Both the position numbers and the translations under genes were made by a program. DNA of 64,000 nucleotides, taken from Planotetraspora phitsanulokensis. Its GTDB lineage: Bacteria; Actinomycetota; Actinomycetes; Streptosporangiales; Streptosporangiaceae. The stretch is taken from NCBI RefSeq assembly GCF_016863295.1, contig NZ_BOOP01000023.1:62001-126000 (forward strand), written 5' to 3'. This document shows positions 30,214 through 33,336 of this stretch, one piece after another. The first letter of the stretch is position 1; the number at the start of each line of letters is the position of its first letter. The notes beneath the pieces were generated by a model. The model was given only the letters and a program-made list of their open reading frames with translations, did not search any database and had not been told where the DNA came from.

Positions 30214-30783
30214 TTACGGGTTCCCGGCGGCGCGACCGTACCAAACGGACGCTTCGCCGTACCGACGGACCCTGTCTTCTTCGAACCCACGCGGCCACAC
30301 CAGGTCCTTCCCCCTGGATTCCCGCTCCACCGCCACAAGTGCGTCCCCGGCCAGCCAGCCGTTGTCCCTGAGCGCCTCGAGCAGCCTGGTGACCGCCTCG
30401 TCCGTCACGGCGTAGGGCGGATCGGCGAAGACGAAGTCGTACGGCTCCTCGCAGGGGCGGCCCACCACCCGCTCGGCCTTCTCCGGCGCGAGCACGGCGC
30501 CCGGCAGGCCGAGGGAGGCGATGTTCCCCCTGATCGTCCGTACGGCTCTCGCGTCCGACTCGACGAGCAGCGCGTGCACGGCGCCCCGGCTGAGCGCCTC
30601 GAGACCGACGGCCCCCGACCCCGCGTAGAGGTCGAGCACCCGCAGCCCCTCGAGCGAGCCGAACATCGATCCCACCGTGGAGAACAGGCCTTCCCTGGCC
30701 CGGTCACTGGTGGGCCTGGTCGCGCCACCTGGGGGAACGGCGAGCCGGCGGCCTCCGGCGGTCCCTGCGATCACCCGCGTCAT
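30214..30783 (-). CDS. rsmD: 16S rRNA (guanine(966)-N(2))-methyltransferase RsmD
   Basis: A 189-residue SAM-dependent methyltransferase. TRVIAGTAGGRRLAVPPG at the N-terminus, VLDLYAGSGAVGLEALSRGA (SAM binding) and the catalytic FADPPYA motif are all present. It modifies G966 of 16S rRNA in the 30S head. ATG 30783 is the family start. The gene is 17 bp upstream of coaD and probably forms one unit with it. Confidence 0.95.
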   Translation of the reverse strand: MTRVIAGTAGGRRLAVPPGGATRPTSDRAREGLFSTVGSMFGSLEGLRVLDLYAGSGAVGLEALSRGAVHALLVESDARAVRTIRGNIASLGLPGAVLAPEKAERVVGRPCEEPYDFVFADPPYAVTDEAVTRLLEALRDNGWLAGDALVAVERESRGKDLVWPRGFEEDRVRRYGEASVWYGRAAGNP

Positions 30784-31164
30784 CCGTTCATTGTCCCGTC
30801 CGGCCCGGCCGTCCCGCTCCGCGGCCCGGATCCCGCGGAGATCGTCTTTGGTCAAGAGTGGGCAAGAGGGAGCGAGGAATGAGTAAGAGCGGTATCGCGA
30901 GGCCTGCGGCATCCGCATGATGAGTTCTGCGGCCTTCAGGTGACCCAGGGGAAGGCCGGCCGACGTGATCGTGAGCCCTTCCGCACGTCGGCGCCCTCGG
31001 CACCTGACCCGAGGGTGGGCCCAGCCGGGGACGGCATTCGGGGGGAGGCCGTCCCATGGCTGGGCCCTGGGTCATTTAAGCGCTCGCGCTGTCGGCGCGT
31101 CAGCGTCTGGCAGCTATTTGCGGCCTTTCCGAGATCTTCCGCCTTTGAGCGGGTCTTGCAGGGT
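30784..31164. other. Intergenic region between recG and rsmD
   Basis: No coding gene is supported in these 381 bp. The centre (30937-31074) is strongly structured and is listed as a repeat. The left part contains AGGGAGCGAGGAATGAG (about 30867-30883), similar in composition to a stretch between smc and ftsY. The right part (31075-31164) shows nothing clear. Confidence 0.4.
30941..31074. repeat. 134-bp element with 10-bp perfect terminal inverted repeats
   Basis: TGACCCAGGG (30941-30950) is inverted as CCCTGGGTCA (31065-31074). Inside are two hairpins: CCGACGTG (30960-30967) with CACGTCGG (30984-30991), nested in CAGGTG/CACCTG (30937-30942, 31001-31006); and GGGCCCAGCC plus GGGACGGC (31017-31035) with GCCGTCCC and GGCTGGGCCC (31048-31067). 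A third TGACCC copy is at 31005-31010. It could be a small non-autonomous mobile element or a structured RNA or terminator pair. Confidence 0.5.
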
Positions 31165-33336
31165 TCATGCCTTTTCCAGGTATTCCGCCTTCTCATCGGC
31201 CACCATCGCGTCGAGCTCCGACCGCAGGGCCGGATGGGAGTCCAGTTCGGGATCGCCCACCAGCACGGTCGTCGCCTCCGCCCGGGCGGCCTCGATCACG
31301 TCCTCATCCCTGAGCAGCTGCAACATCTTCAGCGACGACTTGCGGCCGGACTGTGCGGCGCCGAGGACGTCGCCCTCACGGCGCTGCTCCAGGTCCACCC
31401 GCGACAGCTCGAACCCGTCCAGCGTGCCCGCCACCGCGTCCAGCCGGGCCCGCGCTGGGGTTCCCTCCGGAGCCTCGCTCACCAGCAGGCACAGCCCCGG
31501 CAGGCCGCCCCGGCCGACGCGGCCGCGCAGCTGGTGGAGCTGCGATACGCCGAAACGGTCGGCGTCCATGATGATCATCACGGACGAGTTCGGCACGTCG
31601 ACGCCCACCTCGATGACCGTGGTCGCCACCAGGACGTCGACCTCCCCGCGGCTGAACGCCGTCATCACCGCGTCCTTCTCCTCGGGTGGCAGCTTGCCGT
31701 GCAGCACCTTGATCCGCAGGCCCTGGAGAGGGCCGGCGGTGAGCGCCTCGGCGACGTCCAGGACCGCCAGCGGGGGCCTGCGCTCCTCCTCGGAGCCGGG
31801 CTTGTCGAGATCCCCCTCGTCGCCCTCCTGGTCGCCGATGCGGGGGCAGACGACGTAGGCCTGCCGGCCGAGGCCGACCTCCTCGCGTACCCGCTCCCAC
31901 GTGCGGTCGAGGAAGCGCGGCTTCTCGGCCGCGGGCACCACGTGCGTCGAGATCGGCGCCCGGCCGGAGGGCAGCTGGGTGAGCGTGGAGACCTCCAGGT
32001 CGCCGAAGACGGTCATCGCGACCGTCCGGGGAATGGGCGTCGCGGTCATCACCAGGACGTGCGGCCTGCCCCCGCCGCCCTTCTCGCGCAGGGCGTCGCG
32101 CTGCTCCACGCCGAACCGGTGCTGCTCGTCGACCACGACCAGGCCGAGATCGGCGAACTGGACATGCTCCTGGAGCAGCGCGTGGGTGCCGACCACGATG
32201 CCGGCGTTGCCCGAGGCGGCGTCCAGCAGGGCGCTCCTGCGTCCCCCCGCGCCCATCGAGCCGGTGAGCAGGGCGACCATCGTGCCGCCGAACATGCCGC
32301 CGGTGGCGAGGTCGCCGAGCATCTTCACGATCGACCTGTGGTGCTGCTGGGCGAGCACCTCCGTGGGGGCGAGCAGCACGGCCTGACCGCCGGAGTCGAC
32401 GACCTGCAGCATGGCCCGCAGCGCCACCACGGTCTTGCCCGCGCCCACCTCGCCCTGGAGGAGCCGGTGCATGGGGTGTTCCAGCGAGAGGTCCGCGGCG
32501 ATCTCTTCGCCGACCGCCAGCTGCCCCTCGGTCAGCTGGAACGGCAGCCGCCCCTCGAACGCCCGCAGGAGCCCGTCGTCGGCACCCGGCCGCGGCCTGG
32601 CCGGCCAGGCGGACGCGGCGAGCCTGCGCCGCACCAGCACCGCCTGCAGGACGAACGCCTCGTCGAACTTCAGGCGGCGCCGCGCCTTGGAGACCTCCCC
32701 CATGTCACGCGGGCGGTGGATCTGCCGCAGCGCGGCCTCCAGTGGGGACAGCCCGTGCCGTTCGCGGACCTCGGCGGGCAGCGGGTCCTCCAGGCTCAGC
32801 ACGTCGATCACGGTGCGGACGGCCCGGCGGATCTTCCAGGTGGCCAGGCCCTGCGCGGAGGGATAGATCGGCACAGGCGCGGTCGCGAACTCCTCCGCGG
32901 TCTCCGGCGTCTCGTCGAACGACTCGTAGTCGGGATGCGTGAGCGACACCCGCCGCGTCTTCCCGCTCGCGAAGATGTTGACCTTGCCGGAGAACATGGC
33001 CTCGGTGCCCGGCGTCAGCCGCTGCTCCGCGACGTACGCCCCCTTGCCGAAGAACGCCAGATGCAGCTTGTCCCTGCCGTCGGTGACCTGGACGTCGAGC
33101 CAGGTGCCCTGCCGGTTCTTCATCGGGCGGCGCATCGCGGCCGACACCTTGCCGACGACGGTCGCGTGCTCGTCGTGCTCGAGCGACGCGATCGGGGTCA
33201 GCTCGCCGCGCTGCGCATACCGCCTCGGGTAGTGCCGCAGCAGCTCACCGACCGTGGCGATGCCCAGCGCGCTCTCCAGTGGAGCGGCCGTCTTGTCGCC
33301 GAGGGCCTTCTTCAGCGGCTCGTCGAACCTTGTCAC
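31165..33336 (-). CDS. recG: ATP-dependent DNA helicase RecG
   Basis: A 723-residue branch-migrating helicase that processes stalled forks and Holliday junctions. An OB-type wedge domain (ATVVGKVSAAMRRPMKNRQGTWL) precedes the helicase core: LQGEVGAGKTVVALRAM (motif I), VVDEQHRFGV (motif II), VMTATPIPRT (motif III), the RecG-specific QLHQLRGRVGRG. GTG 33336 is used. An acidic insert (QEGDEGDLDKPGSEEERRPP) near residue 505 is longer than usual. It is divergently placed from nothing and follows the DAK2 gene, as in other actinobacteria. Confidence 0.96.
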   Translation of the reverse strand: MTRFDEPLKKALGDKTAAPLESALGIATVGELLRHYPRRYAQRGELTPIASLEHDEHATVVGKVSAAMRRPMKNRQGTWLDVQVTDGRDKLHLAFFGKGAYVAEQRLTPGTEAMFSGKVNIFASGKTRRVSLTHPDYESFDETPETAEEFATAPVPIYPSAQGLATWKIRRAVRTVIDVLSLEDPLPAEVRERHGLSPLEAALRQIHRPRDMGEVSKARRRLKFDEAFVLQAVLVRRRLAASAWPARPRPGADDGLLRAFEGRLPFQLTEGQLAVGEEIAADLSLEHPMHRLLQGEVGAGKTVVALRAMLQVVDSGGQAVLLAPTEVLAQQHHRSIVKMLGDLATGGMFGGTMVALLTGSMGAGGRRSALLDAASGNAGIVVGTHALLQEHVQFADLGLVVVDEQHRFGVEQRDALREKGGGGRPHVLVMTATPIPRTVAMTVFGDLEVSTLTQLPSGRAPISTHVVPAAEKPRFLDRTWERVREEVGLGRQAYVVCPRIGDQEGDEGDLDKPGSEEERRPPLAVLDVAEALTAGPLQGLRIKVLHGKLPPEEKDAVMTAFSRGEVDVLVATTVIEVGVDVPNSSVMIIMDADRFGVSQLHQLRGRVGRGGLPGLCLLVSEAPEGTPARARLDAVAGTLDGFELSRVDLEQRREGDVLGAAQSGRKSSLKMLQLLRDEDVIEAARAEATTVLVGDPELDSHPALRSELDAMVADEKAEYLEKA

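Follow-up and report, generated by a model that had tools for sequence, protein, structure and literature searches.

A probable stand-alone small RNA gene between rsmD and recG in the Streptosporangiaceae

The space between rsmD and recG in Planotetraspora phitsanulokensis very likely holds a stand-alone small RNA (sRNA) gene of the Streptosporangiaceae, a judgement that covers the gene and not the mechanism of its product. The conserved unit is the whole block at 30850-31077 of the window (the 64,000-nucleotide stretch of DNA that was analysed), which is present in single copy between rsmD and recG across the NCBI Streptosporangiaceae. The best reading of the predicted RNA is a new trans-acting sRNA family. 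Rightward transcription would be driven by a promoter at about 30850-30921, which a putative regulator bound to the phased CAAG repeats probably activates, and would yield a compact product of about 145 nt (approximately 30928-31077), almost without single-stranded tails. This product is predicted to fold into hairpins P1, P2 and P3 followed by a long P4/P5 hairpin that doubles as the transcript end, and to act in trans via its invariant loops.

The Streptosporangiaceae are soil bacteria and a family with many antibiotic producers (Nonomuraea, Streptosporangium, Microbispora, Planotetraspora), and to our knowledge post-transcriptional control has been little studied in these organisms. A near-invariant RNA kept through the whole family implies a strong selected role, and this one is absent from public RNA-family libraries. 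The invariant loops, the single datable origin and the existence of natural variants that differ in their number of G-loop hairpins (one, two or three) make its function directly testable.

Structure and strand of the predicted RNA

A sequence-only reading of this region had described a 134-bp element bounded by perfect terminal inverted repeats, and an exact 10-bp pair, TGACCCAGGG and its inverse CCCTGGGTCA, does span 134 bp (the P0 arms of Table 1). The repeat taken alone is weak evidence, because such pairs are common in this GC-rich window: exact 10-bp inverted pairs within a span of 140 bp number 88, whereas five order-1 Markov versions of it have 16-47. The complete fold is better than expected by chance: the plus strand folds at -92.5 kcal/mol (z -5.2, a value that none of 200 shuffles reached), and the minus strand gives a z of -4.7 in the shuffle comparison. 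The two inner hairpins of the sequence-only reading correspond to P2 and the long P4 hairpin, and its third copy of TGACCC is present at 31005 but belongs to the P3 loop, not to the junction where it had been placed. Overlooked were P1 and P3, with the DNA stems GGCCTTC/GAAGGCC and CCCTCGG/CCGAGGG, respectively.

Table 1. Features of the rsmD-recG region, in window coordinates.
Feature	Position	Strand	Remarks
rsmD	30214..30783	-	Pfam PF03602, 161.9 bits; diverges from the RNA gene
Upstream box, GGTCAAGAGTGGGCAAG...GTAAG..., with CAAG repeats	30850..30896	+	Probable activator site
-10-like CATGAT (family consensus CAnnAT)	30916..30921	+	Putative -10 element
Predicted small RNA	30928..31077	+	Ends predicted
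Hairpin P1, CGGCCTTC/GAAGGCCG, loop with GGUGACCCA	30930..30958	+	Helix 1: 3 double-change pairs, 100% paired
P0 5' arm (left terminal repeat)	30941..30950	+	Sits inside P1 loop and 3' strand
Hairpin P2, loop RUCGUGAGCCCUUCCG	30959..30992	+	Helix 2: 4 double-change pairs, 99.2% paired
Hairpin P3, loop CACCUGAC	30994..31015	+	Helix 3: 3 double-change pairs, 100% paired
Long hairpin P4 with P5 cap	31017..31067	+	Helices 4 and 5: 3 + 3 double-change pairs; terminator-like
P5 G-rich loop, AUUCGGGGGGAG	31036..31047	+	Identical in 94/94 homologues reaching that position
P0 3' arm (right terminal repeat)	31065..31074	+	Present in 28/90 loci
recG	31165..33336	-	Pfam RecG_wedge and helicase domains; converges on the RNA gene

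The structural model comprises four hairpins, five helices and 41 base pairs, and was examined in 95 homologues (93 distinct). In the alignment of these sequences, which was fitted to the model so that the counts lean towards it, 98.8% of cells are paired, compared with 35-52% when partners are slid by 1-3 columns; 16 of the 41 pairs have changed on both sides and 73 cells show such double changes, where shuffles lead one to expect 5.4 and 14, respectively; every helix contains at least three covarying pairs. The same picture emerges from an independent MAFFT alignment with 13 members, in which 98.3% is paired and seven pairs have double changes. Read on the plus strand the helices contain 138 G-U and 6 A-C pairs, and the RNA is therefore the plus strand. 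The conserved pairing, covariation and strand signal strongly support the structured RNA that had been put forward as one explanation of the repeat.

The loops of P2, P3 and P5 are nearly or fully invariant: the P2 loop RTCGTGAGCCCTTCCG, which includes an anti-Shine-Dalgarno-like CCCUUCC, and the P3 loop are each found in 94 of the 95 homologues, and the P5 loop (UUCGGGGGGAGG), with its invariant six-G run, is the most conserved part of the RNA. Contacts between loops were also considered. A kissing interaction of the P1 and P3 loops (AGGUG:CACCU) was rejected because several genera lack it; in a candidate GGAAGG:CCUUCC pseudoknot the bases barely vary. Protein coding is unlikely and was likewise rejected, as length differences among homologues do not respect multiples of three and the codon phases take roughly similar shares of the substitutions (96/78/69).

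The terminal arms of the inverted repeat are not transposon ends. Of 90 loci, 27 have the perfect pair, 17 have just the left arm, one has just the right, and 45 have neither; imperfect forms are present in early-branching genera. The best interpretation of the arms is an optional closing helix, P0, which certain genera have retained and the Nonomuraea and Streptosporangium lines have lost.

Flanking genes and transcription signals

Pfam matches identify the genes on both sides, which confirms the location between rsmD and recG. The longest rsmD open reading frame (window 30784-30918, minus strand) extends 45 codons past the conserved start and overlaps the predicted RNA promoter. The PF03602 match begins at residue 47 of this frame; the extension to 30918 is alignable only within the genus, and most other loci align from residue 39-46. 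Protein alignments and the Pfam match thus place the start of rsmD probably at 30783 (about MTRVIAG) and not at 30918, leaving an intergenic space of approximately 380 bp. Automatic annotation may miscall this start and so hide the RNA gene. The RNA lies on the plus strand, pointing away from rsmD and towards recG, and is therefore the leader of neither gene.

Upstream of the RNA is a conserved block of 47 bp (GGTCAAGAGTGGnCAAGtgtcgGCgacGAatgcGcAAGGGTggTtccc), the upstream box of Table 1, which is the only perfect match in its genome. Mean pairwise identity is 0.40 upstream of the box, 0.74 in the box (89 loci), 0.43 in the spacer that follows, 0.80 in the gcCAnnATG region, 0.92 in the RNA (95 homologues) and 0.31 downstream of it. 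The distance from the start of the box to the -10-like motif is exactly 65 bp in all 79 measurable loci, and this constant geometry despite a drifting spacer indicates constraint at the level of the DNA. The CAAG repeats are separated by about one or two helical turns, a spacing that suggests a putative regulator binding direct repeats. Since no -35 hexamer is recognisable upstream of the -10-like motif, promoter strength would depend on this assumed activator. Initiation 7 nt after CATGAT probably places the 5' end of the predicted transcript at P1.

At the other end, P4/P5 and the T tract that follows would probably end the transcript. The T tract is weak in Planotetraspora and stronger in some relatives, among them some Nonomuraea (for example GGGCCTTTTACAT in locus L115). 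The element thus has the makings of a trans-acting sRNA gene, namely a conserved, structured intergenic RNA with promoter- and terminator-like signals of its own, the T tract being variable. The region between the RNA and recG has additional features in certain genomes. Four Microbispora loci (L138, L143, L162, L189) carry a further conserved hairpin, AACGGGCGTCGTGTTCACACGGCGCCCGTTT, after P4, which is probably a terminator of recG or a second terminator of the RNA. A long low-complexity tandem repeat lies between the RNA and recG at L027:1850-2370; it is open in several frames, with repeated CRVVP/ARHHT-like translations.

Distribution, descent and rival explanations

The Planotetraspora genome has a single copy of the element, further matches of 16-40 bp being attributable to chance in GC-rich DNA. 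A BLAST search of 37 GTDB-family genomes found it in 16, at 88-100% identity and in every case between recG and rsmD. A covariance model with E up to 0.1 has matches in 129 of 297 genomes of the GTDB family, representing 26 of 68 genera. About 126 of these score 139-186 bits; only weak matches are found in the other three (G138, G247, G308). The G247 match (L104, 27 bits) covers the last part of a lipoprotein-like gene together with its terminator and was discarded as chance, and another weak match, in L246, scores 14.5 bits. Outside the family, the model found just three matches, of 23-24 bits, in 395 genomes of the class. An exact-pattern scan returned 113 stretches, and the genus names rest on the 80 of these that were listed: among the matches listed, all names are those of NCBI Streptosporangiaceae genera, an unclassified family member, or the misnamed [Actinomadura] parvosata. 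The genera are Nonomuraea, Streptosporangium, Microbispora, Microtetraspora, Planotetraspora, Planobispora, Planomonospora, Herbidospora, Sphaerisporangium, Sphaerimonospora, Acrocarpospora, Spongiactinospora, Sinosporangium, Thermoactinospora, Bailinhaonella and Rhizohabitans.

Outside the NCBI Streptosporangiaceae the relatives lack the element. The 25 non-carriers with recG and rsmD on one retrieved stretch have no clear homologue there, and in most of them the gap between the two genes is below 160 bp. A tree built from 55 recG sequences has its 28 carriers as one side of one branch (support 95/84), and 0 of 500 shuffles are as clustered. This pattern fits one gain followed by vertical descent. 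The sequence-only reading had proposed a search for other copies and empty sites; empty sites were found in many relatives, and nearly every carrier has a single copy. Second copies away from recG occur in two Nonomuraea genomes. In G274 (SYSU D8015) a diverged copy at L100:1509-1658 (minus strand, 66 bits) has altered loops in P3 and P5 and still shows a trace of the box, and in G314 a weaker copy at L102:1567-1721 (minus strand, 37 bits) retains P3 and P4/P5.

These data bear on the suggestion that the stretch is a miniature inverted-repeat element, or some other mobile element bounded by TGACCCAGGG repeats. The perfect 10-bp arms in the Planotetraspora genome and the many sites without the element speak for this explanation, but it is extremely improbable given that neither conserved terminal repeats nor several copies at varied sites were found: the arms are not conserved as a pair, the 3' repeat being absent from most homologues, and the element has one copy per genome with rare exceptions, at a fixed place where checked, in sampled carriers that form one clade. 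Moreover, the conserved promoter-like box lies outside the arms, and phages lack the element, the sole match to a plasmid record being a Nonomuraea entry whose length, 11.9 Mb, marks it as a chromosome. A very unlikely alternative is that the stretch acts in the minus-strand transcript, as a bidirectional terminator or cis-acting recG-rsmD spacer. The element does lie at the 3' end of recG and its minus-strand fold is also stable, but the excess of G-U over A-C pairs favours the plus strand, the invariant loops and a box at fixed spacing to a plus-strand -10 would be superfluous for a terminator, and relatives manage without the element, often with a shorter gap. What survives of the earlier proposal of a terminator for rsmD or recG is that the last hairpin may terminate its own RNA.

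Two further explanations accept a plus-strand RNA and give it a local role. As the RNA is opposite to both genes it would be antisense to any recG-rsmD co-transcript, but a cis-antisense RNA acting on that transcript only would need neither a conserved secondary structure nor invariant loops, and the sequence right after P4, towards the 3' end of recG, is unconserved; we regard this as decidedly improbable. The terminator-like last hairpin and invariant loops also resemble those of a riboswitch or leader of a small downstream plus-strand gene. This possibility has almost nothing to recommend it when set against the distance of only about 90 bp from the RNA end to the recG stop in this genome, the absence of a conserved plus-strand open reading frame and the lack of conservation downstream.

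Possible function and comparison with known RNAs

Because the loops of the predicted trans-acting sRNA are invariant, no covariation can name its partner. The most likely mechanism, to be held tentatively, is titration, in which the UUCGGGGGGAGG loop, resembling a ribosome-binding site (RBS), would sequester a partner able to recognise such sites, be it an sRNA with C-rich loops, such as 6C RNA, or a protein. Titration of a partner is suggested by the recurrence of the G loop on new stems in two early-branching genera. Bailinhaonella (L146) has two G-loop hairpins in all and Rhizohabitans (L173) three, with the loop GGGGGGAGG; the extra hairpins lie in tandem downstream of the RNA core on unrelated stems, and the third Rhizohabitans loop is slightly changed. 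A unit multiplied on changing stems is typical of partner-soaking RNAs. Nearly as likely, and hence itself doubtful, is that the CCCUUCC loop of P2 pairs directly with the Shine-Dalgarno sequences of target mRNAs. Both mechanisms may operate.

With regard to a candidate partner, 6C RNA was found in every one of 17 genomes searched, whether or not they carry the element, and in the carriers its loops have six to eight Cs. In mycobacteria, the C-rich loops of 6C RNA are reported to pair at ribosome-binding sites and thereby repress genes, and a six-G tract in a 5' UTR of Mycobacterium abscessus is a candidate 6C partner (PMC10470900). The G6 loop of the element, which ends in GGAGG, could be a decoy for 6C RNA. 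A more specific proposal, which we consider unlikely, is a '6G' counterpart in which the decoy-RBS loop GGGGGGAGG would capture 6C loops and so free 6C-repressed mRNAs, under a lineage-specific regulator. The second 6C loop UCUCCCCCC could pair with GGGGGGAGG over 9 bp, including one G-U, in 9 of 12 carrier genomes (10 of 13 with L290 added; 7 bp in the Planotetraspora genome). Computed pairing of the G loop is -13.5 kcal/mol with the 16S anti-Shine-Dalgarno sequence and about -16 kcal/mol with 6C loops, base composition alone making both easy, and the G6:C6 complementarity is short and easily due to chance in a GC-rich genome.

The element is, in kind, a bacterial sRNA, and as a family it appears to be new. 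A homologue (L028) had no match in Rfam 15 at the gathering score, and the window region had only sub-threshold matches, the best with an E of 0.37. A description of a recG-rsmD RNA was not found in the open-access literature, and the text of a Streptosporangiaceae transcriptome paper (PMC5431353) does not mention small or noncoding RNAs. The highest-scoring Rfam match over the element, Scr3202 (RF02833), reaches 22.6 bits (E 1.1), below its 52-bit cut-off, and lies on the other strand. Ms1 RNA is similarly a conserved actinobacterial sRNA in a conserved gene neighbourhood, but its gene adjoins a HAD hydrolase gene (PMC9130861), whereas the flanks of the element are recG and rsmD, and identity with Ms1 was rejected.

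6C RNA (RF01066, B11 in mycobacteria) is likewise a stand-alone actinobacterial sRNA with tandem hairpins, a homopolymer-rich loop and one copy per genome. It differs in that its loops are C-rich while that of the element is G-rich, and the element has no RF01066 match. The two are not the same RNA, as the Planotetraspora genome has a separate 6C gene, its sole RF01066 match, at G000:C11:213898-213973 (L265:1501-1576, minus strand), with the loops ACCCCCCC and UCCCCCCC. The titrating RNAs of the CsrB/RsmZ type display the same G-rich loop on repeated hairpins, as do Bailinhaonella and Rhizohabitans with their two to three copies; most members of the element, in contrast, have only one such hairpin.
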